This document shows positions 3,001 to 48,233 of a DNA stretch of 58,931 nucleotides, one piece after another. Made by a program: the position numbers and the translations under genes. The notes under the pieces are model-generated. The model was not told the origin of the DNA. It was given only the letters and a program-made list of their open reading frames with translations, and searched no databases. Position 1 is the stretch's first letter, and every line of letters begins with the position of its first letter. Where the stretch lies: assembly GCA_947502635.1 (NCBI GenBank), contig CANNAN010000020.1:1-58931 (forward strand). Reading direction: 5' to 3'. The DNA comes from an uncultured Flavobacteriaceae bacterium (GTDB taxonomy: Bacteria; Bacteroidota; Bacteroidia; Flavobacteriales; Flavobacteriaceae).

Positions 3001-4776
3001 TATCTGATCGATAGATTGACAAGGAGCTGTTGCTGTATTACGAACATAATATGTTCCTGGAGTCGTAACAGTTATAGCTTGTGTTGTTCCAATAACAGGC
3101 GTTCCTGTCGGACTTGTTGACCACGAATATGAATCGTAAGCAGCACCTGCTGTTAATACGACATCTGTACCACAAAGGATCACATCCTCTTCAAACGTAC
3201 AATTAATATCTGCTATAAAATTAGTAGCTCCTGGTGTTAACAGACAGCCAGTATTAGTACTATAACTTGGATCATCTGAAATAACAAACAAAGGATTTAA
3301 TGTACCTCTATATGTTGAAAAAGCTTGGTTACTTACTATATTATCGCACGCATTATTCAACAAACTACATTCTCTCACCACCGTAACCTTAAAACGGATA
3401 TCCAACACAGGGTCATTTTCCTCTACTACAGAATCGTCTACAGCAAAAATAAGTTCTCTAGTTGATGGATTGTAGCTTTGCACAGTAACCCCTGAAGGCA
3501 ATAACCCCATATCGGCAGGGTAATCAAAATCAATATTTAGTGGTAATACATCTCTAATCGTTAGACCTGTAGCATCATCATTTCCTGTATTCTGAAATCC
3601 TATAACATAGTTTAATTCATCACCTAAATTCACCAATCCACCTCCTATATTGTTTCCTAATGCATCCTCAACGGTTTTAGTAAGAACCATATTAGGAGCA
3701 ATAATATCAACCGCAAAAGCGAAAAAATATGGGAAATAGGTATCTTGACTTGTTTCCAAACGTATCGTTGCGCTGGTGTCATCATTGGCAATAACCGTAT
3801 TACTTGGATTAGGTACAGCTAATATACCTGTATCAAACCCTAAAGTATTACTACTATTCGGTTGCCTAGCAGGAGGTCCAGTTATCGTGCTATTAAAAAA
3901 GTTGTTCTCAGACCGATCTGGATCCGATAGTCTCGTTCCATTTATTCTTAAACGGTCTCCAGAAAGTGGGCTATCTCCTTCTAATGCAGCAAATGCAAAA
4001 TTTGCTCTAACTGGCGCTGGTGCAGGTACTGTTCTAAACCCAGAAACGGATATATCCAATGCTGGGGTACTACTTGTAATCACACTAAAACCATCAAAAC
4101 TAGTGACTGATTTACCTGGTAATGACGGATTCTGATAAACTATAAATAAAGACCATCCCGCAGAATAACCTGTACCATTTCTAGGTGAAAACGTATCTGT
4201 TTGCCCTTCAGCTGATGATACATTTGCAACGGTATAAGTTCCTTGATCTGTTCCAGATCCTAACCCCCTAACTATATTTGTAACATCTGCATAACAGGCA
4301 TATGGAAAACTATTACCACCATCTACAGACGTTGTAAGAGCATCAAAAATAACGATTCCTGTAACATCATTATAACCACCAGTTGGCCCCCTGAATTTTA
4401 CATTAGTAATGGATTCCGAACCTTTTGTAACGCCACTCCAATAGAGACCAGCATGTACTATTTCGTAGCAATCATTAGCGGCAACAGGAATGTTAGGATT
4501 AATAGGAATTGCTAAATCTGCACTTGATGAACTAAATGTTGTTCCATCTGAATCAATATCAATGTACCTCATATTTCTTGTATGATTGAGAACACTGGTA
4601 TTATTGAAATCATTGTTGTTTGGTCCTAAAATATTGTTACCTATTAGAACGATATCACCCTTCAAATCTTGATTAAATCTAGGTGTGAAGGGCACTTGAT
4701 TTTGAGCAAACAATTGTACACTGAAAAGTATCAGTAGAACAATAAGTCCATTTTTTAAAATAGTAGGTTTTTTCAT
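1..4776 (-). CDS. sprB: SprB-like giant repeat adhesin (5' part; runs off left edge)
   Basis: The minus-strand frame from the ATG at 4776 stays open to base 1 and gives 1592 codons with no stop, so the 3' end lies outside the window. Residues 1-24 form a signal peptide (MKKPTILKNG then a hydrophobic stretch ending LFAQ). Residues of about 361-470 look like a DUF11-type beta-sandwich (VLTKTVEDALG, LGDELNYVIGFQNTG). From about residue 710 to the edge there are some ten to eleven SprB-type repeats of 80-100 residues, each with a Cys near its start and a core like GGTAPYTYSIDG followed by GTYTVTIRD. In Flavobacterium johnsoniae SprB is a mobile surface adhesin of several thousand residues, secreted by T9SS and moved by the gliding machinery. 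The gene follows sprC- and sprD-like genes in the known order, 86 bases after the latter. The exact orthologue is inferred, because other flavobacterial repeat adhesins look alike. Confidence 0.8.
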   Translation of the reverse strand, partial: MKKPTILKNGLIVLLILFSVQLFAQNQVPFTPRFNQDLKGDIVLIGNNILGPNNNDFNNTSVLNHTRNMRYIDIDSDGTTFSSSSADLAIPINPNIPVAANDCYEIVHAGLYWSGVTKGSESITNVKFRGPTGGYNDVTGIVIFDALTTSVDGGNSFPYACYADVTNIVRGLGSGTDQGTYTVANVSSAEGQTDTFSPRNGTGYSAGWSLFIVYQNPSLPGKSVTSFDGFSVITSSTPALDISVSGFRTVPAPAPVRANFAFAALEGDSPLSGDRLRINGTRLSDPDRSENNFFNSTITGPPARQPNSSNTLGFDTGILAVPNPSNTVIANDDTSATIRLETSQDTYFPYFFAFAVDIIAPNMVLTKTVEDALGNNIGGGLVNLGDELNYVIGFQNTGNDDATGLTIRDVLPLNIDFDYPADMGLLPSGVTVQSYNPSTRELIFAVDDSVVEENDPVLDIRFKVTVVRECSLLNNACDNIVSNQAFSTYRGTLNPLFVISDDPSYSTNTGCLLTPGATNFIADINCTFEEDVILCGTDVVLTAGAAYDSYSWSTSPTGTPVIGTTQAITVTTPGTYYVRNTATAPCQSIDQIFNVITFGAGVTNPIIPFADLVLNCPDNGDKLPNIFMCGAADTRFLDTNITDANSIIWERLDETRCDPVADIRCANKGATCIWNQVQTGPDYLVDTPGQYKLTLNYDGGCFNVFYFNVYENVLVPTATSRDIICTTLGEIVVNDVPSGYEYSIDNVNFQPSNIFSIATAGIYTVYIRQIGVTPNPCIFTVPNIQIRERDFTVTTDITQPLCHDGQGSVLIAANDVRPQYYYSISLGGTLINSVGPIVAGDYTFSNLNPGTYTINVSTDDGCAYTGDITIINPPLLTATAALTSPLTCTDGEITVYPAGGTAPYFYFVNSTTVFQTVPEVPVSAAGTYNIRVVDSNNCFVDTSITVDAILPPDFNVTKTDILCSGSGDVGEITINVTDPNGNTLRYSIDNGVTFFNSPVFTGLATGDYEVVVEYTTGPDVCVSAPQTISIIELSAVTGTATLTTPYTCTSDGEITVSGVSGGTAPYTYSIDGVTFQSGTTFSPLINGTYTVTIRDVNNCTFVAAPITIDPLDPPTDLTFTDKSFDCSDNTSSFNVNLPSWGGGLPPIRFQIIAVPAYITVGSPLYNYLTQINSDGQYSGVPEGVYTFQVTDRNGCTYQENYILEPEPPIGVTGTLLNNVTCFNSSTGAFEFEVIGTFTGGNNVYDYDITGPVNSSDTRQTAPTITLSNMPAGTYTITVTERSTGCVDTASVTVSGPPSGLAITTTTSPITCNVDGSVVINATGGWGGNTYTLTQPDTTVLGPQGSSTFANLTQTGTYTVTVTDTNGCTDTDTFALSSPTVPSAVIDVTSDLCYDVTNAATLVVTTSGGQTPYEYNINGGPFGSSNTFTNLTPGTYTIIVRDAYGCTVTLPAQTIAPQLTVSTVLTKDLDCSVSPDALITGTIAGGLAPYTYEISLNAGAYNPLGATGTPFTYLTATDGDYQFRITDSQGCQAESNVITINPIALPTATTTSVNPTCNSVADGSVQIVPAGGVGPYTYNFDGSGFTGASSYPG

Positions 4777-4862
4777 AATAGTTATATTTGGCGCTTCTTT
4801 ACCCTCATAGGTATGGGGCATAATCAGATAAAGTTTAGCTAGACTAATTTTGTTACATATTC

Positions 4863-7832
4863 TTAATTTTCAATTTTAACCATTGACATTTTTCCATTAT
4901 ATGGTTTTTTCTTTTTATTCTGTAAAGCTCTTGTAGCTTGTTCTACACTATCGAACTTCTCATAATAAATAAAATATTTACTAGTATTTTCATCGTAGAA
5001 GAAGTTTATATCAGTTTCTCCAGCAGATACCGCCTTCTTTACAAATTCATCTCTTTTATCAACATTATTATGTACAGCAATTACTAAATAATACCCACTG
5101 GCTACATTTTTAACATCTTTTACAATTTGTATGTTACCACTTTGTTTCTCTCCAAAATCAAAATCTTCTTCAGTAAGAGTAACTCTACTTGCAGGTGTAT
5201 TCTTTTTGATTCGGTTTAATGCCGCCATATCTTTCGAATATCTGTCATCTGCATTATCATAAGCTGCACGCTTAATTCTTCGTTTTCTCTCTATTTCTGT
5301 AGCTATTTTAATTTTTTCTAGAGTGGACATTAAACTTTTTCTTGAACTTAAAGCTTCTAATTGTTCCGATTTCAACCTTTCTAAAGTTTTTAACTCAGCT
5401 GGATTAATCGAACCTTTGTATGATTCTTCTAATGCTTTAATTTTTTCATCTCGAGAAGTTATAACATTATCAAGCTCTAATTTCAAAGATTCTAAAGCAG
5501 CATTTTCTGCCGTTATACTTTTAAAAGGTTTTGGAGCTTTAAAAATGCCCTTTTCTCCTAAATCATTTTCTTCTTTTAAATCCTTAAGATCTTGATCTCT
5601 GGTAGCCACCGTTTCGTCTAATCTTGTTAATAAATCATTCATTGATTTAGTAATATCATCAACTGGTGTTGGAACGGTCTCTTCTGCTTTTGCTCTAGCT
5701 TCTTCTTCTGCTTTGGCTTTCGCTGCGGCTGCATCGGCTGCGGCTTTTGCTCTGGCTTCTTCTTCTGCTTTAGCTTTCGCTGCGGCTGCATCGGCTGCTG
5801 CTTTTGCTCTGGCTTCTTCTTCTGCTTTCGCTTTTGCTGCGGCTGCATCTGCTGCTGCTTTTGCTCTAGCTTCCTCTTCTGCTCTGGCTTTGGCTGCGGC
5901 TGCATCGGCTGCTGCTTTTGCTCTGGCTTCCTCTTCTGCTTTGGCTTTGGCTGCGGCTTTTGCTCTAGCTTCTTCTTCTGCTTTGGCTTTCGCTGCGGCT
6001 GCATCGGCTGCGGCTTTTGCTCTAGCTTCCTCTTCTGCTTTCGCTTTCGCTGCGGCTGCATCGGCTGCGGCTTTTGCTCTAGCTTCCTCTTCGGCTTTGG
6101 CTTTTGCTGCGGCGGCATCGGCTGCGGCTTTTGCTCTAGCTTCCTCTTCTGCTTTCGCTTTTGCGGCGGCGGCATCGGCTGCTGCTTTTGCTCTAGCTTC
6201 CTCTTCGGCTTTGGCTTTTGCTGCGGCGGCATCGGCTGCTGCTTTTACTCTAGCTTCCTCTTCGGCTTTGGCTTTGGCTTTGGCTACGGCTGCATCGGCT
6301 GCGGCTTTTGCTCTGGCTTCCTCTTCTGCTTTAGCTTTCGCTGCGGCGGCATCGGCTGCTGCTTTTGCTCTAGCTTCCTCTTCTGCTTTAGCTTTAGCTG
6401 CGGCTGCATCGGCTGCGGCTTTTACTCTAGCTTCCTCTTCTGCTTTAGCTTTCGCTGCGGCTGCATCAGCTGCGGCTTTTGCTCTGGCTTCTTCTTCTGC
6501 TTTGGCTTTCGCTGCTGCTGCATCAGCTGCGGCTTTTGCTCTGGCTTCCTCTTCTGCTTTAGCTTTCGCTGCGGCATCATCAGTGGTTTTTAATCTAGCT
6601 TCCTCTTCTGCTTTGGCTTTGGCTGCGGCGGCATCGGCTGCTGCTTTTGCTCTGGCTTCCTCTTCTGCTTTAGCTTTCGCTGCTACTCTCGCTTCCGCTT
6701 CAGCCTTAACTTTTGCTGCCGCTTCTGCTCTTTCTTTAGCTCTTAATTCTGCTGCTTTCGCTCTAGCTTCTGCTTCTGCTTTTGCTCTAGCTGTTGCTTC
6801 TGCACGTTCTTTAGCAGAAACTTTTGGTTGAGAAGGCGCATTTTGTCTCGCTATTGGACGTCTTTTTTTCTTGGCTGGAATGATGATAGAACCTTCTTCA
6901 TCATCACCACTATATCTATATCTGTATCTATTCTTAAATTTATAAGCTAAAGTAATATCATGAGAGTTTCCTAAATCTATTAAATCACCCATTGCTTTTT
7001 CATAATTATACTCCAAAGAAACTTGAGTGCTTACGTTAAAACCTATCCCTCCTGATAATCCATATAAAGTATTATATCCTACTTGAGCCCAAATACCTTT
7101 AGGAACAGTCAACATTGCTATTCCAGAAAGTACCGTTTTCTCTTTTTTGAATTCTGATCTAATTAATCCAGAAAATTTACTTTCATCGAAAAAACCTCGG
7201 GTATTTGCATAACCTGTGTACATGACATGAGCTTGAATACTTTGTTCTGGATCATCTTCAACAATTTTTGATGTCTTAATATTATATAAAACAGCATTAT
7301 TTATTGAGAGTCCAAAATCAAGAAAATCTGTACCATAATTTATCCCTGGGTTCACAGTCAATATAGAGTTTGAAGGTATATTCTCTAAAGATGGGTCTGA
7401 AAAATTCCCTACTATTTTACCCTCGTTTAAACCACTTTTATAAAAGCCTAGGTTCATACCAAAAGTTAAATTGCTATCTCTATCTAGAACAACATTATAA
7501 GCAAAATTTAAAACGCCTCCAAAAGTAGTTAACACTCCATAAGTTTGTTGAAATAATCCAATACCAATACCCATATTTTCTCTAAATCTTCCAGAATAAC
7601 CAAATAAGAAGGTTTGAGGAGCATTTTCAAACTGAACCCATTGTCTTTTATTATTAAAACTAATATATCTGTTTTGTTCCCTTACAAAACTAAAAGTTGG
7701 GTTAATAATATATTTATTGAACTTTAAAGTATTTCTAACAGGTAGAACGAACGAAACAACTCCATCTTCTTGCGTATGGAATTGTTGCATAAAACATAAG
7801 AATAAAACGATATGTAATAAATATTTTTTCAC
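4863..7832 (-). CDS. sprD: SprD-like PorP/SprF-family protein with long TolA-like Ala/Lys/Glu helix and SPOR-like C-terminus
   Basis: The protein has 989 residues. Residues 1-21 are a signal peptide. Residues of about 22-305 match the PorP/SprF outer-membrane beta-barrel family of the type IX secretion system (NPTFSFVREQNRYISFNNKR, later GGIGFNVSTQVSLEYNYEKA). A basic linker (AKKKRRPIARQN) leads into about 370 residues built from some 18 copies of a 19-residue unit of the type KAKAEEEARAKAAADAAAA, expected to form one very long charged helix as in TolA domain II. The last 270 residues are a charged helical region and then an SPOR-like fold (GYYLVIAVHNNVDKR through FIYYEKFDSVEQATRALQ). The gene starts one base after the sprC-like stop, so translation is probably coupled. 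In F. johnsoniae sprC, sprD, sprB and sprF form one operon needed for normal SprB function. The SprD name rests on position and architecture; a PorP/SprF annotation is safer. Confidence 0.75.
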   Translation of the reverse strand: MKKYLLHIVLFLCFMQQFHTQEDGVVSFVLPVRNTLKFNKYIINPTFSFVREQNRYISFNNKRQWVQFENAPQTFLFGYSGRFRENMGIGIGLFQQTYGVLTTFGGVLNFAYNVVLDRDSNLTFGMNLGFYKSGLNEGKIVGNFSDPSLENIPSNSILTVNPGINYGTDFLDFGLSINNAVLYNIKTSKIVEDDPEQSIQAHVMYTGYANTRGFFDESKFSGLIRSEFKKEKTVLSGIAMLTVPKGIWAQVGYNTLYGLSGGIGFNVSTQVSLEYNYEKAMGDLIDLGNSHDITLAYKFKNRYRYRYSGDDEEGSIIIPAKKKRRPIARQNAPSQPKVSAKERAEATARAKAEAEARAKAAELRAKERAEAAAKVKAEAEARVAAKAKAEEEARAKAAADAAAAKAKAEEEARLKTTDDAAAKAKAEEEARAKAAADAAAAKAKAEEEARAKAAADAAAAKAKAEEEARVKAAADAAAAKAKAEEEARAKAAADAAAAKAKAEEEARAKAAADAAVAKAKAKAEEEARVKAAADAAAAKAKAEEEARAKAAADAAAAKAKAEEEARAKAAADAAAAKAKAEEEARAKAAADAAAAKAKAEEEARAKAAADAAAAKAKAEEEARAKAAAKAKAEEEARAKAAADAAAAKARAEEEARAKAAADAAAAKAKAEEEARAKAAADAAAAKAKAEEEARAKAAADAAAAKAKAEEEARAKAEETVPTPVDDITKSMNDLLTRLDETVATRDQDLKDLKEENDLGEKGIFKAPKPFKSITAENAALESLKLELDNVITSRDEKIKALEESYKGSINPAELKTLERLKSEQLEALSSRKSLMSTLEKIKIATEIERKRRIKRAAYDNADDRYSKDMAALNRIKKNTPASRVTLTEEDFDFGEKQSGNIQIVKDVKNVASGYYLVIAVHNNVDKRDEFVKKAVSAGETDINFFYDENTSKYFIYYEKFDSVEQATRALQNKKKKPYNGKMSMVKIEN
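5680..6790 (-). repeat. 57-bp coding tandem repeat (about 18 units) inside the sprD-like gene
   Basis: The unit encodes 19 residues rich in Ala, Lys and Glu. Copies differ mostly at synonymous third positions (for example gctttggctttcgctgcggc against gctttagctttcgctgcggc). Two copies are shortened or altered (one ends after AKAAA, one has RLKTTDD), and one has an extra KA pair. Unit number is therefore likely to vary between strains by slippage or recombination while the frame is kept. The repeat also creates long open frames on the other strand and in a shifted frame, which are artefacts. Confidence 0.93.
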
Positions 7833-44274: not shown

Positions 44275-45654
44275 TTGGATACCATACCTGAAATACTTTT
44301 AAAACAAAAAGCTTTTTTTAAGTCTCAAAAAACAAAAGAGGTCTCTTACCGATTATCGCTATTAAAGGCTCTAAAACAGGAAATAGTTTCTAATGAACAA
44401 GCTATTTATGAGGCTTTAAAAAAGGATTTTAAAAAATCTGAATTCGAAACATTTATTAGTGAATTTGGTCTTGTAATTTCTGAGTTAAACCTAGTTATTA
44501 AAAACCTTAAAAAATGGGCGAAACCTAAACGTGTAAAATCGTCGATGTTAACGTTTCCATCTCAAGATTATATTTACAAAGAACCTTATGGAAGCATACT
44601 AATTATTGCGCCTTGGAATTATCCGTTTTTACTAGCCATAGAGCCCTTAATAATGGCTATTGCAGCTGGAAATACGGTTATTTTAAAACCTAGTGAACTT
44701 ACAAAACATACATCACAGCTTATCACAAATATTGTTCAAAAAATATTCCCTGAAACTATAGCCCAATCTATTGAAGGTGGTATTGAAACAGCCACAGAAT
44801 TACTGGCTCAAAAATGGGATTACATATTTTTTACGGGCAGCGTTCCAGTTGGAAAAATTGTGGCGCGTGCTGCTGCTAAACATTTAACTCCCGTTACTTT
44901 AGAATTGGGAGGCAAATCACCTGGTATTATTGATGATACTGTTGATTTAAAATTGGCGGCTCGACGTATATCTTGGGGAAAATTTTTAAATGCTGGGCAA
45001 ACATGTATTGCAGCAGACTACATCATTGTAAAATCTAATGTTAAAGACGCCTTTATAGACGCTTTAAAAACTGAAATTATTAAAAGGTATGGTGTAAACC
45101 CCAAAGAATCTGTTGATTTACCGAGAATTATTAATAAAAAGAATCTGTTAAGGCTTGCAAATATGTTAGAAGGTTCTCATGTGATTTTTGGTGGTCATGT
45201 GGATGTAGACGCTTGTTATATAGCCCCTACTTTAATTGACGTTCCTAATTTGGATAGTAAAATAATGAGCGACGAGATTTTTGGCCCTGTTTTACCTATT
45301 CTAACTTACGATACAGAGCAGGACATAGAGAATATTATTTGGCATTACGATAAGCCTTTGGCATTCTACATATTTTCAAATAATAAGACTTTTATTGAAC
45401 AAGCCATTAAAAAATATAGTTTTGGAGGCGGGGTTGTTAATGATTTATTAATTCATTTTGGAAATCATAGATTGCCTTTTGGTGGTATTGGTGCTAGTGG
45501 TATGGGCGCTTATCATGGAAAAATGGGTTTCGATACATTTTCACATCATAAAAGTATATCCAAACGCGGTAATTGGATAGATCCAAGTATCAGATACGCT
45601 CCTTATAAAGGAAAATTGGGACTCTTAAAAAAAATGTTCAAGTATTTTTCTTAA
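44275..45654 (+). CDS. Aldehyde dehydrogenase with a probable TTG start
   Basis: The protein has 459 residues, of the class 3-like membrane-associated group. Signs are IIAPWNYPFLLAIEPLIMAI, the NAD-binding IFFTGSVPVGKIVARAAA, the active-site Glu in LELGGKSPGI, the nucleophile Cys in NAGQTCIAADYI, and EIFGPVLPIL. The frame is closed upstream by a stop at 44260-44262 and has no ATG before about residue 90, which lies inside the domain, so TTG at 44275 is the likely start. A C-terminal basic and hydrophobic tail (LGLLKKMFKYFS) could touch the membrane. It oxidises aldehydes to acids with NAD(P); substrate unknown. Confidence 0.92.
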   Translation: MDTIPEILLKQKAFFKSQKTKEVSYRLSLLKALKQEIVSNEQAIYEALKKDFKKSEFETFISEFGLVISELNLVIKNLKKWAKPKRVKSSMLTFPSQDYIYKEPYGSILIIAPWNYPFLLAIEPLIMAIAAGNTVILKPSELTKHTSQLITNIVQKIFPETIAQSIEGGIETATELLAQKWDYIFFTGSVPVGKIVARAAAKHLTPVTLELGGKSPGIIDDTVDLKLAARRISWGKFLNAGQTCIAADYIIVKSNVKDAFIDALKTEIIKRYGVNPKESVDLPRIINKKNLLRLANMLEGSHVIFGGHVDVDACYIAPTLIDVPNLDSKIMSDEIFGPVLPILTYDTEQDIENIIWHYDKPLAFYIFSNNKTFIEQAIKKYSFGGGVVNDLLIHFGNHRLPFGGIGASGMGAYHGKMGFDTFSHHKSISKRGNWIDPSIRYAPYKGKLGLLKKMFKYFS

Positions 45655-45719
45655 TTAATGTTAGCAAGATTCAAACAAGCACATTTAATTTATAAATAAT
45701 GTTTATTTTAAATCTATTT

Positions 45720-45966
45720 TGTCATTCCTGTGAAGGCAGGAATCCACTCGTAAATGAAATACCCCTATTCTAGTAAATAAGACCTAGTAAAACCTTCAAC
45801 TAATTTATTTTTGTGTTCGAACATACGCCTTTCTAAATCGTTTGTTACACCAATATATAGGGTTTCGCAAGTCTTATTCGTTAAAATGTATAGATAATAT
45901 TGATGATGGGGTTTATTCATAAACATTATATTCTTTTTGTGGATTCCTGCCTCCGCAGGAATGACA
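45720..45966. mobile_element. Short inverted-repeat element, copy 1 (deleted GIY-YIG)
   Basis: The 247-base unit is bounded by 28-base inverted repeats, tgtcattcctg...ggaatccac on the left and its complement on the right. Each end is itself a palindrome (attcctgy-4-gcaggaat). The inside is a shortened GIY-YIG frame. It is nearly identical to copy 2 at 46003-46250, and each unit is followed by the same spacer type (agyggtactttaatttatct). Confidence 0.8.
45765..45920 (-). pseudogene. Internally deleted GIY-YIG endonuclease (copy 1)
   Basis: The 51-codon frame reads MNKPHHQYYLYILTNKTCET through HKNKLVEGFTRSYLLE. It keeps the GIY-YIG core but lacks the 52 codons between GFT and SYLLE that hold the remaining conserved helix and basic region in the full copy at 46331. 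The frame is intact, so a small peptide could be made, but the nuclease should be inactive. Confidence 0.75.
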
Positions 45967-46002
45967 AGTGGTACTTTAATTTATCTCCTTTTAAACCTAT
46001 TT

Positions 46003-46250
46003 TGTCATTCCTGCGAAGGCAGGAATCCACTCGTAAATGAGATGCCCCTATTCTAGTAAATAAGACCTAGTAAAACCTTCAACTAATTTATTTTTGTGTT
46101 CGAACATACGCCTTTCTAAATCGTTTGTTACACCAATATATAGGGTTTCGCAAGTCTTATTCGTTAAAATGTATAGATAATATTGATGATGGGGTTTATT
46201 CATAAACATTATATTCTTTTTAATGGATTCCTGCCTCCGCAGGAATGACA
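46003..46250. mobile_element. Short inverted-repeat element, copy 2 (deleted GIY-YIG)
   Basis: It has the same structure as copy 1. The left end is attcctgc gaag gcaggaat and the right end attcctgc ctcc gcaggaat; as inverted repeats the two 28-base ends differ at one base. The spacer to copy 3 (46251-46285) closely resembles the one between copies 1 and 2. Confidence 0.82.
46048..46203 (-). pseudogene. Internally deleted GIY-YIG endonuclease (copy 2)
   Basis: The 51-codon frame is identical in protein sequence to copy 1, with the same in-frame loss of 52 codons. A longer reading would start at 46251 within the terminal palindrome (MSFLRRQESIKKN), but that part is repeat, not gene. Confidence 0.75.
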
Positions 46251-46285
46251 AGCGGTACTTTAATTTATCTCTTTTAAACCTATTT

Positions 46286-46688
46286 TGTCATTCCTGCGAA
46301 GGCAGGAACCCACTCGTAAATGAAATACCCCTATTCTAGTAAATAAGACCAGTCTTTAGATAGGTCTTTCCAATTAGGATTATCTTTTTCTATAAGGTCA
46401 ATTTTCCATTGACGCTTCCACTTTTTCATATTCTTTTCTCTCTTAATGGCATCGTTAACATATTGATACGTCTCAAAATATAGTAACTTATACAATCCAT
46501 ATTTCTTGGTAAAGCCTTCAACTAATTTATTTTTGTGTTCGAACATACGTCTTTCTAAATCGTTTGTTACACCAATATATAGGGTTCCACAGGTCTTATT
46601 CGTTAAGAGGTATAGATAATATTGATGATGAGATTTATTCATAAACATTATATCTTTTTAGTGGATTCCTGCCTTCACAGGAATGACA
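46286..46688. mobile_element. Full-length inverted-repeat element carrying GIY-YIG gene (copy 3)
   Basis: The 403-base unit has the same terminal palindromes as copies 1 and 2 (right end attcctgccttcacaggaat followed by gaca). It holds one intact GIY-YIG gene on the minus strand. No other gene lies within it. It is 155-156 bases longer than its neighbours, exactly the 52-codon segment they lack. Confidence 0.82.
46331..46642 (-). CDS. GIY-YIG nuclease family protein (full-length)
   Basis: The protein has 103 residues from the second ATG (MNKSHHQYYLYLLTNKTCGT); an ATG two codons upstream is also possible. The family core is YYLYLLTN and LYIGVTNDLERRMFEHKN (GIY-YIG strands and the conserved Arg), then TKKYGLYKLLYFETYQYVND and AIKREKNMKKWKRQWKIDLI (Glu helix and basic part), ending NPNWKDLSKDW. 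This small UvrC-N/YhbQ-type subfamily is common as single genes in Bacteroidetes, often beside short palindromic repeats. It is the only gene in the element and is the natural candidate for whatever spreads it. Confidence 0.88.
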   Translation of the reverse strand: MNKSHHQYYLYLLTNKTCGTLYIGVTNDLERRMFEHKNKLVEGFTKKYGLYKLLYFETYQYVNDAIKREKNMKKWKRQWKIDLIEKDNPNWKDLSKDWSYLLE

Positions 46689-46734
46689 AGCGGTACTTAA
46701 ATTTTAAAAAAAAAGACTCATTAATATGCGTTAA

Positions 46735-47535
46735 TTAAGAAATAGGATAATTTAAGACCAATTGCACCCCTTCGTCAGGCTTAGACGTTAATTCAAATTT
46801 TGCATTGATTAATGAAGCTCGACTCTTCATGTTTATTAATCCTGATCCTTTTTCTATATCGTTCATATCAAAACCTTTACCATCATCTGTAGCTGTGATT
46901 TTCAAGTTTTCTGTTTGATATTCAATGGCAATGGCTAGATTTTCGGCCTCAGAATATTTTACTGAGTTAGACAAAAACTCCTGTAATATTCTAAAAATAA
47001 TGATTTCATGCTTTCTGTCTGTAAAATCGATTCTCTCTCCTATTGTTTTAAGTTCAGCAGAAGCAAACTTCATTTTTTTAAGTCGATTTAATTCGTTGGT
47101 CACAGATTTTTCAAAACCGATGTTTAAAACAACCTCATTATTTAATGTTTTAGAAAGTGCCCGCACTTCAGATAAACTATTTTTAAGTGCTTCTGTAGTA
47201 TCCTTAAACTTTTCCTTAACATCATCTGCTACCTGCATTTTTAAAATGCTTAATTGCATACTGGCAAATGATAATAGCTGTCCCACATTATCATGTAATT
47301 CCCAGCCAATGTTTTTAAGTGTCTGCTCTTGTATCTCGGTTTGTGCCTGCGCTATTTCTTCTTCAAAAGCTTGTTGTTGCTCTATTTTATCGAGCAACAA
47401 TTTATTCTTTCTTTTTTGAAATACAATAAAAAAGATAATAACCAGTGACGTTACAATTACTAAAACAGCAATCATATACACTAACAAATACCTTTCGGCA
47501 GCTGTACTCGCTAATCGTTCTCCGGTTTGCACCAT
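46735..47535 (-). CDS. Membrane-anchored sensor histidine kinase (NarX/LytS-like, HisKA_3)
   Basis: The protein has 266 residues. One membrane helix at about 17-40 (LLVYMIAVLVIVTSLVIIFF) is followed by a coiled coil and the HisKA_3 phospho-acceptor IGWELHDNVGQLLSFASMQL (His near residue 100). The ATPase domain has FLSNSVKYSEAENLAI (N box), DDGKGFD (G1) and GSGLINMKSRASLI (G2). It has no input domain of its own. Its start overlaps the end of the seven-helix gene by 25 bases, so the two are translated together and the neighbour may be the sensor. No response regulator gene is in the window. Confidence 0.93.
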   Translation of the reverse strand: MVQTGERLASTAAERYLLVYMIAVLVIVTSLVIIFFIVFQKRKNKLLLDKIEQQQAFEEEIAQAQTEIQEQTLKNIGWELHDNVGQLLSFASMQLSILKMQVADDVKEKFKDTTEALKNSLSEVRALSKTLNNEVVLNIGFEKSVTNELNRLKKMKFASAELKTIGERIDFTDRKHEIIIFRILQEFLSNSVKYSEAENLAIAIEYQTENLKITATDDGKGFDMNDIEKGSGLINMKSRASLINAKFELTSKPDEGVQLVLNYPIS

Positions 47536-48233
47536 ATTAAAGCAAAAGTATAAGTTGAATACATAAATATATTAGCAAATAAGAAAATTTCTAATTGTAA
47601 AAAAACAAAATTCCAATCTCGGTTATTACTACCTGAGTCATAAGCAAAATAAACATCATAAAAATCTATAGGCGTAATGATGAGCCACCAGATAAATATG
47701 GCAAAGCTGATATAAAAATTTATAGATCTGTAAAAAGTTAATACTTTATCGCTTTGCAGGATTTCAATAAAATAAAATACTGTACAAATTAGTATAATAA
47801 TAGCTCCCAGAATACTCATAACTGGAAAAAACTTATAAAAAAATGCGTTCCAATTTAAAATAATGTATACAAGAGAAAAAAACAAATATGCATACCCTGA
47901 AAACTTAATAATAGTTTTGAAATTTTTAGTTTTCAAAATTTTACGATAATAAAAAGAAAAAAACATAATGGCTCCTATTTGCCAATAGAGTGTTGACCAC
48001 CAATGATTCTTTTCAAAAATAGTTCCTATAAGAAATCTAAAAATTTTATCTGGATGAACATACATCGAATAAGAACTAATAAAATCACAAATGGTTAGAT
48101 AGACCAAAAAATATATAAAATATTTAGCAGCTGTAAATCTGTACTTATTATAAAGCAACAAACCTGTTACAGCTGCTAAAGATTCTGTGATAGTTGTAAG
48201 TATATGATAATTTTCTTTTAGAAATTCTTCCAC
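47511..48233 (-). CDS. Seven-helix membrane protein, possible sensor partner of the kinase
   Basis: The protein has 240 residues with about seven hydrophobic segments (about 13-30, 36-55, 80-100, 110-127, 135-155, 170-190 and 212-232), for example AKYFIYFLVYLTICDFISSY and MSILGAIIILICTVFYFIEI. There is no signal peptide and no soluble domain. It overlaps the kinase gene and follows a small protein gene by five bases. The layout resembles split two-component sensors in which a polytopic protein feeds a kinase. That idea is inference; the family is uncharacterised. Confidence 0.78.
   Translation of the reverse strand: MEEFLKENYHILTTITESLAAVTGLLLYNKYRFTAAKYFIYFLVYLTICDFISSYSMYVHPDKIFRFLIGTIFEKNHWWSTLYWQIGAIMFFSFYYRKILKTKNFKTIIKFSGYAYLFFSLVYIILNWNAFFYKFFPVMSILGAIIILICTVFYFIEILQSDKVLTFYRSINFYISFAIFIWWLIITPIDFYDVYFAYDSGSNNRDWNFVFLQLEIFLFANIFMYSTYTFALIWCKPEND

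Follow-up and report, generated by a model that had tools for sequence, protein, structure and literature searches.

A tandem REP–GIY-YIG–REP array in a Flavobacteriaceae genome suggests a compact mobile element of CGTC-type palindromes

The window considered here is a stretch of 58,931 nucleotides from an uncultured Flavobacteriaceae bacterium (assembly GCA_947502635.1, contig CANNAN010000020.1). Between two genes it carries an array of three tandem units, each bounded by inverted copies of a short palindrome of the REP type (Table 1). Each end is a hairpin, ATTCCTGC-N4-GCAGGAAT, with the tag TGTC outside and the tail CCA inside; with the loop spelled out, the ends read TGTC-ATTCCTGC-GAAG-GCAGGAAT-CCA or a near variant of this (CTGT in two ends, GAACC in one end of unit 3). 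The outer arms of the array (45719-45748 and 46660-46689) are complementary at 100% over 30 nt, and inverted pairs among the six ends at 93-100%. Three tandem units, six hairpin ends and a single type of GIY-YIG gene had been described in an earlier note on this DNA, and all of this is confirmed. The note had given all three units identical 28-base terminal inverted repeats, with a GIY-YIG nuclease as the only gene inside. The ends are indeed common to all three, but the lengths differ (247-248 bp for units 1 and 2, 403 bp for unit 3) and the complete nuclease is encoded in unit 3 only.

Table 1. Array, component REPs and neighbouring genes, in positions of the window.
Feature	Position	Strand	Remarks
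Aldehyde dehydrogenase-like gene flanking the insertion site	44275..45654	+	Named from reading the translation
Unit 1: REP, truncated GIY-YIG, inverted REP	45720..45966	-	Derivative with an internal deletion, probably non-autonomous
CGTC-1 type REP, left end of unit 1	45720..45746	+	TGTC tag outward, CCA inward
Truncated GIY-YIG frame of unit 1	45765..45926	-	53 aa from ATG
REP, right end of unit 1	45940..45966	-	
Spacer, 36 bp	45967..46002	no strand	Repeated at 46251-46285; mark of tandem duplication
Unit 2: structure as unit 1	46003..46250	-	Identical 156-bp deletion
REP, left end of unit 2	46003..46029	+	
Truncated GIY-YIG frame of unit 2	46048..46209	-	53 aa from ATG
REP, right end of unit 2	46224..46250	-	
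Unit 3: complete element, REP, GIY-YIG gene, inverted REP	46286..46688	-	403 bp; homologous units at other loci end near equivalent tags
REP, left end of unit 3	46286..46312	+	GAACC variant
Full-length GIY-YIG nuclease gene	46331..46648	-	105-aa ORF; PF01541 E 8.7e-15; invariant residues; model pLDDT 88.5
REP, right end of unit 3	46662..46688	-	
Histidine kinase-like gene flanking the insertion site	46735..47535	-	Named from reading the translation

The truncation in units 1 and 2 is an in-frame deletion common to both, which leaves a remnant without the conserved Glu59. The unit starts are spaced by 283 bp, and the spacers of 35-36 bp are repeated along with the units. Because the deletion is common and the spacers are repeated too, tandem duplication of a whole segment accounts for the triplication better than three insertions do; as a sign of transposition the triplication finds no support, since it has the look of a local duplication. 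The most likely history is that a complete element gave rise to a deleted copy and that the segment was then duplicated in tandem. We consider it probable that the array represents a compact mobile element, present in one complete copy and in two copies with internal deletions.

By its profile match to PF01541 (E 8.7e-15) the protein of unit 3 belongs to the GIY-YIG superfamily. The residues invariant in 44 proteins include Y13, Y24, G26, R34, H38, E59 and N90, among them residues with catalytic roles in GIY-YIG enzymes; this is as expected of what would be an active nuclease. UPF0213 was the best match in a profile search (2e-8), and in NCBIfam only group I intron endonucleases were found, all below threshold. 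When an AlphaFold2 model of the 105-aa protein (pLDDT 88.5) was compared with the PDB by Foldseek, the nearest solved folds were UPF0213 (E 1.7e-3) and Slx1 (E 0.02 to 0.2), with no PDB match at E<=0.001. Slx1 is a nuclease of branched DNA, which a cruciform REP resembles, and a hairpin or cruciform substrate would fit the likeness to this enzyme.

Di Nocera et al. (2013; PMC3733652) divided REPs into two superfamilies, GTAG and CGTC. Their CGTC-1 class has the tag CGTC, often TGTC, a stem of 8 bp that opens with AT, a loop of 4 nt and, in most cases, the tail CCA; CGTC-tagged REPs were known from five phyla and include neisserial dRS3 and rickettsial RPE-6/RPE-4. According to that survey, CGTC repeats show no association with transposase genes and seem to be without a dedicated transposase, no tyrosine transposase gene is flanked by them, and the few associations with other transposases are fortuitous (PMC3733652). 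The term GIY is absent from that text. All six ends of the array have TGTC as an unpaired tag, and their stem, loop and tail, ATTCCTGC-GAAG-GCAGGAAT-CCA, agree with the CGTC-1 definition of PMC3733652; the tag is TGTC and not the GTAG of RAYT-REP systems. In matched pairs of ends elsewhere, C or T precedes GTC in 56 of 57 left ends and 54 of 57 right ends, giving the tag YGTC; unlike GTC itself, this preceding base is left free by the search rule. No Rfam match was found in 45000-47600, and no match was found in phages.

Dispersal of the palindrome is likewise that of a CGTC-1 repeat. The genome of the window holds 23 matches to the 25-mer at <=3 mismatches, and a reversed control gave none. 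Six of them make up the array and 17 lie elsewhere, four of these forming two gene-less head-to-head dimers (L020/L021 and L022/L029) with starts about 50 bp apart. The earlier note had regarded palindromes at many sites without GIY-YIG genes as speaking against its proposal, and 17 of the 23 REPs in this genome do lack an adjoining GIY-YIG gene of the window type; one of them is a solo REP beside a decayed GIY-YIG fragment (L015:1501-1631, on contig C2), with 74% identity over 62 bp to a window unit. Solo REPs are the rule in RAYT systems too.

Adjoining REPs are a recurrent feature of GIY-YIG genes of this kind in other bacteria. A sample from named genomes was made up of the best 80 of 569 confirmed stretches, chosen by protein alone; 77 of these come from 13 named phyla, 56 of them from Pseudomonadota, and three are without phylum. 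Under a strict rule, a CGTC hairpin lies <=250 bp from the gene at 68 of these best 80 loci, on both sides at 39, and no REP is found by this rule at 12. Such hairpins adjoin GIY-YIG genes in 12 of the named phyla represented in the best 80, and they are 67 times as dense next to the gene as farther out (94 in 158 side-bins at 0-100 bp versus 36 in 4042 at 1-5 kb). Their orientation relative to the gene is biased rather than fixed: the tag points outward in 66 of these 94 REPs, and on both sides at 29 of the best 80 loci. Control ORFs were taken from the same loci (>=150 aa and >1 kb away, small intergenic genes being matched by other GIY-YIG genes only); in the best 80 of 569, 10 of 152 control ORFs have a REP, and one of 152 has REPs on both sides (Fisher p 7e-35 and 1e-20).

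The Bacteroidota were sampled separately. A GIY-YIG match occurs in 128 of 296 genomes, and from the matches listed among these 128 we picked 60 regions, one per genome, 18 of which have a hairpin by the strict rule. A motif-free test, which scores the best inverted match between the left and right flanks of the gene (cut-off score 13), reached >=13 in 27 of the 60 loci versus 0 of 240 null windows, and in 52 of 79 versus 2 of 320 for the best 80 of 569 named loci, one having been dropped for a short flank. The strict rule misses short-stem forms such as GTCATTCTGAGCGAAGCGAAGAATC, and was abandoned as the sole definition; results by both rules are given here. An extended grammar, GTCATnnn...n'n'n'ATC, was written after the motif-free test had revealed these forms. 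With it, a REP lies <=250 bp from the gene at 47 of the 60 Bacteroidota loci and on both sides at 40, versus 17 and 2 of 225 control ORFs, and since the grammar was written after that test these 60 loci are no independent test of it. Better tests are 19 further Bacteroidota loci, counted apart, of which 15 have a REP and 12 have REPs on both sides, and the best 80 of 569 named loci, for which the corresponding counts are 69 and 43. On plasmids, 17 of 34 records were examined and counted by reading, and 10 have a strict REP <=250 bp from the gene, plus one doubtful case (L092). A GIY-YIG gene between inverted REPs, the layout described in the earlier note, thus recurs in many phyla and far above the local background, and we have hardly any doubt that the association is real.

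Some loci show REPs in more elaborate arrangements. Downstream of the GIY-YIG gene on the Photobacterium plasmid pGJ3-1 (L084:5450-7618), fourteen alternating CGTC REPs form seven head-to-head dimers. At L372 (G209:C1:1479500-1493500), more than 20 near-identical REPs of the GTCATGACGAGCGAGGCACGAG type stand in tandem, together with ten copies of another REP and several GIY-YIG matches. In G005 (L066:5808-5857) the loop of a REP is seemingly interrupted by another REP-like hairpin (CTGAACTTGTTTCAG), and a similar case lies beside the unit of G010. The same G005 locus (L066, ~3736-3957) has a dispersed repeat of ~200 bp that is present more than 10 times in G005; shorter relatives of it occur elsewhere in the genus.

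The two ends of an element resemble each other more than they resemble the ends of other elements. Over seven positions, arm identity is 0.94 within versus 0.76 between elements in the best 80 of 569 named loci (n=43 of 80), and 0.83 versus 0.51 in the Bacteroidota (n=40 of 60), a difference reached in 0 of 2000 permutations in either case. Inside single genomes it is 0.88 within (22 elements) versus 0.38 between (28 cross pairs), the 22 being all elements with a REP on both sides, tandem copies included and one duplicate region excluded. The value within elements is 0.86 (18 elements) once tandem copies are collapsed, and for 16 hand-picked elements the figures are 0.89 versus 0.34. Of six loci read in G282, four are flanked by REPs left and right, with a distinct kind in every pair, and G008 has two REP types. 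Because identity is higher within elements even inside one genome, the ends appear to follow the element rather than the genome; they tend to be element-specific, which supports the reading in the earlier note. Copies in G098 have retained two unlike ends, the match between the ends is poor in L284 and L298 (0.43 each), and in G004 and G010 the unit has kept a REP on one side only. As a separate observation, L073 (G004) and L074 (G002) have ~4 kb of DNA in common and carry GIY-YIG elements with different REP types, seemingly at one site.

The class of REP also tracks the protein to some extent. Assigned by a regular-expression rule and limited to three classes (129 of 204 rows kept, with 14 'other' and 61 'none' rows excluded), REP class requires 22 changes on the protein tree against a shuffled mean of 43.6, with 0 of 200 shuffles as low. 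When the classes were shuffled inside the taxonomic classes of the named loci (best 80 of 569), there was no signal (41 of 200).

Across 12 genomes of the genus it could be seen where the unit is present and where it is absent. Window-type units (>=70% identity) occur in eight of them, including the window's own, at four sites: that of the window (G000, G002 and G010), a second (G003, G004, G008 and G009), a third (G005) and a fourth, again in G002. The site of the window is empty in nine of the 12 genomes, where the flanking genes are 5 to 310 bp apart. The G005 insertion is absent from G001, G002, G003, G004, G007, G009, G010 and G011, where both sides align with ~35-55 bp between them; for G000 and G006 only one side falls within the compared locus. 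A fragment of a unit is seen ~1-1.4 kb from this site in G003, G006 and G007. Homology between the four sites is confined to the unit, and alignments between sites end within a few to ~20 bases of the outer tags; in G098, copies on different contigs are homologous from tag to tag. In Azospirillum lipoferum, a block of REP dimer, GIY-YIG gene and REP dimer lies between sufB and sufC, and among the matches listed 11 other records lack it (12 of 21 records), aligning there in two pieces that are ~0.5-0.6 kb shorter. Units at different sites, with empty sites in other genomes, agree with the mobile layout put forward in the earlier note; since the sites differ among genomes, the converse picture of all units in one place in all relatives does not hold. 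That the unit moves as a unit is, we believe, highly probable. Of the eight carriers in the genus, seven have inherited a unit at one of two shared sites, so that movement would seem to be rare.

The unit shares terminal inverted repeats and presence at non-homologous sites with classical IS elements and MITEs. A target-site duplication, another of their features, was not seen: 0 of 57 matched pairs have a direct repeat of >=4 bp exactly at the ends, and direct repeats at an offset of <=4 bases have a mean of 1.1 versus 0.8, with 29 of 500 shuffles as high. The outer flanks of matched pairs have a mean inverted complementarity of 5.9 versus 5.1 shuffled (0 of 300 permutations), with 11 of 49 at a score of >=7 (null mean 4.7). 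Inverted repetition also continues beyond the tag, with a mean run of 1.49 versus 0.71, and beyond the tag base with 0.91 versus 0.51 (0 of 2000 each). Hairpins as insertion targets were considered on these grounds, and the flank complementarity and longer inverted runs were judged too weak for such a claim.

These observations are best read as those of a REP–GIY-YIG–REP mobile element that would work like RAYT-REP systems with an unrelated enzyme. Its plan, mostly within ~350-450 bp, is one GIY-YIG nuclease gene set between a REP with a YGTC tag and a matching REP in inverted orientation. It is likely that the nuclease acts on its own REPs and thereby causes the movement of the unit. An alternative is that REP dimers are older host elements into which GIY-YIG genes home, the REPs then being the target and not part of the unit. 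The gene-less dimers in the genome of the window would suit such a history, as would the Azospirillum gene lying between two dimers and a REP-like piece at the G005 site in G008, and head-to-head dimers are common in CGTC families (PMC3733652). Against it, there are no REPs by either rule at the empty window site or 300 bp beyond it in nine of nine genomes, nor in the sufB/sufC gap of the four Azospirillum records read. The homology between copies at different sites takes in the REPs and stops near the outer tags, and REPs differ more between the elements of one genome than within an element. We therefore regard a landing-pad origin as unlikely.

Specificity within the genus bears on a second alternative, in which another enzyme acts in trans to move the REPs, be it a RAYT/Y1 transposase, a recombinase or the replication machinery, with the GIY-YIG gene as cargo or as a regulator of REP cruciforms. 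Y1 transposase genes are indeed present in all 12 genomes (63 matches), and movement of CGTC REPs by other transposases is left open by Di Nocera et al. (PMC3733652). Yet only one of 30 Y1 loci examined has such a REP <=250 bp away, so that the adjoining Y1/HUH gene of RAYT-REP systems is not a feature of this sample, and inverted flanks of another kind occur at four of the 30. Window-type GIY-YIG genes have a REP at nine of nine sampled loci in the 12 genomes, versus 0 of 20 sampled for a YGTC REP beside other GIY-YIG genes (32-41% identity). For a second GIY-YIG type of the genus (43-57% identity) the counts are 0 of 15 by the strict rule and 2 of 15 by the extended one; inverted flanks score >=13 at four of these 15 loci, three having a CCTGC-type stem and no clear GTC tag. 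If the gene were cargo, one would not expect a single enzyme family in 12 phyla and a REP class that tracks the protein tree, and the published survey has no tyrosine transposase gene flanked by CGTC REPs (PMC3733652). A passenger role for the nuclease thus appears slightly less probable still than homing into older dimers. The other GIY-YIG genes were rejected as a clean negative control: inverted repeats of another kind flank eight of the 20, and for palindromic ends generally they are therefore no control. In five loci of the genus (L330, L331, L334, L336 and L339, ~4001-5243) a further GIY-YIG group is flanked by matched inverted palindromes that differ in kind from those of the window, CGGTGGCTGAGCGTAGTCGAAGCCAC and TCGAGCGCAGTCGAGA. 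Finally, REPs acting merely as terminators or mRNA stabilisers near small intergenic genes, with the association arising from gene-poor regions, would accord with the many REPs that lie downstream of genes and are plausibly transcribed (PMC3733652), but is very improbable in view of the control ORFs (>=150 aa, 10 of 152), the 0 of 20 other GIY-YIG genes sampled in the genus, the matched ends, and the presence or absence of the whole unit.

For the REP–GIY-YIG–REP element, the following mechanism may be envisaged. On single-stranded or supercoiled DNA the REP would fold as a hairpin or cruciform, the GIY-YIG protein would recognise its own folded REP and cut beside the tag, and host repair would join the released unit elsewhere or copy the unit into a new site. 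This order of steps is a tentative proposal, of which we are more doubtful than confident. REPs that occur singly or as dimers would be either decayed units or non-autonomous products on which the enzyme acts in trans, and the triplication in the window a later tandem duplication of a deleted copy. The GIY-YIG enzyme would thus be dedicated to CGTC REPs as the counterpart of the RAYTs for GTAG REPs. A broader possibility, to which we give equal weight for and against, is that stand-alone GIY-YIG nucleases as a class are movers of bacterial palindromic repeats, one subfamily for YGTC REPs and others for palindromes like CTGAGCGTAGTCGAAG found beside other GIY-YIG genes of the genus; they would then constitute a mobile-element class of their own, based on a structure-selective nuclease and having no transposase, recombinase or reverse transcriptase.

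In conclusion, the array and its relatives suggest that the partner hitherto missing for a widespread family of palindromic repeats in bacteria is a GIY-YIG nuclease. If true, a cognate GIY-YIG gene would explain the spread of CGTC REPs, which were published without an enzyme of their own, and would provide a function for many proteins whose sole annotation is 'GIY-YIG nuclease family protein'. It would also mean that REP-type mobility arose with two unrelated enzymes. The model predicts which nuclease pairs with which hairpin. Among the PMC matches listed, no title or abstract links GIY-YIG to REPs, and the link is not made in the available parts of PMC5082802, PMC12306157 and PMC9465073; preprints and most subscription papers were outside the search, and an earlier report is possible.

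Several known systems invite comparison. RAYT/TnpA-REP systems (REPtrons, REPINs) consist in general of a nuclease-type gene with inverted REPs, with solo REPs and dimers elsewhere in the genome. The element of the window is alike in having one nuclease-type gene, inverted REP flanks and solo REPs or dimers elsewhere; the RAYT enzyme is a Y1/HUH tyrosine transposase and the tag GTAG, in contrast to GIY-YIG and YGTC here. Free-standing GIY-YIG homing endonucleases of the I-TevI and I-BmoI type are similar in fold, in catalytic residues and in that the gene is tied to its own mobility, whereas the window element has no separate DNA-binding domain and no intron, has palindromic ends, and occupies unrelated sites rather than one homologous site. 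Slx1 and UPF0213 (BH0048) are the best fold matches to the window protein in the PDB; Slx1 is longer and works with Slx4, the UPF0213 entries are titled hypothetical, and to our knowledge neither is flanked by REPs. Penelope-like retroelements also have a GIY-YIG nuclease inside a mobile element and encode a reverse transcriptase, whereas the window element encodes the nuclease only. The closest likeness in the palindrome itself is to CGTC REPs as defined in PMC3733652, with the CGTC/TGTC tag, the 8-bp AT-stem, the 4-nt loop, the CCA tail and the dimers; these were published there without a dedicated transposase, whereas here a GIY-YIG gene is the regular occupant of the space between two REPs.
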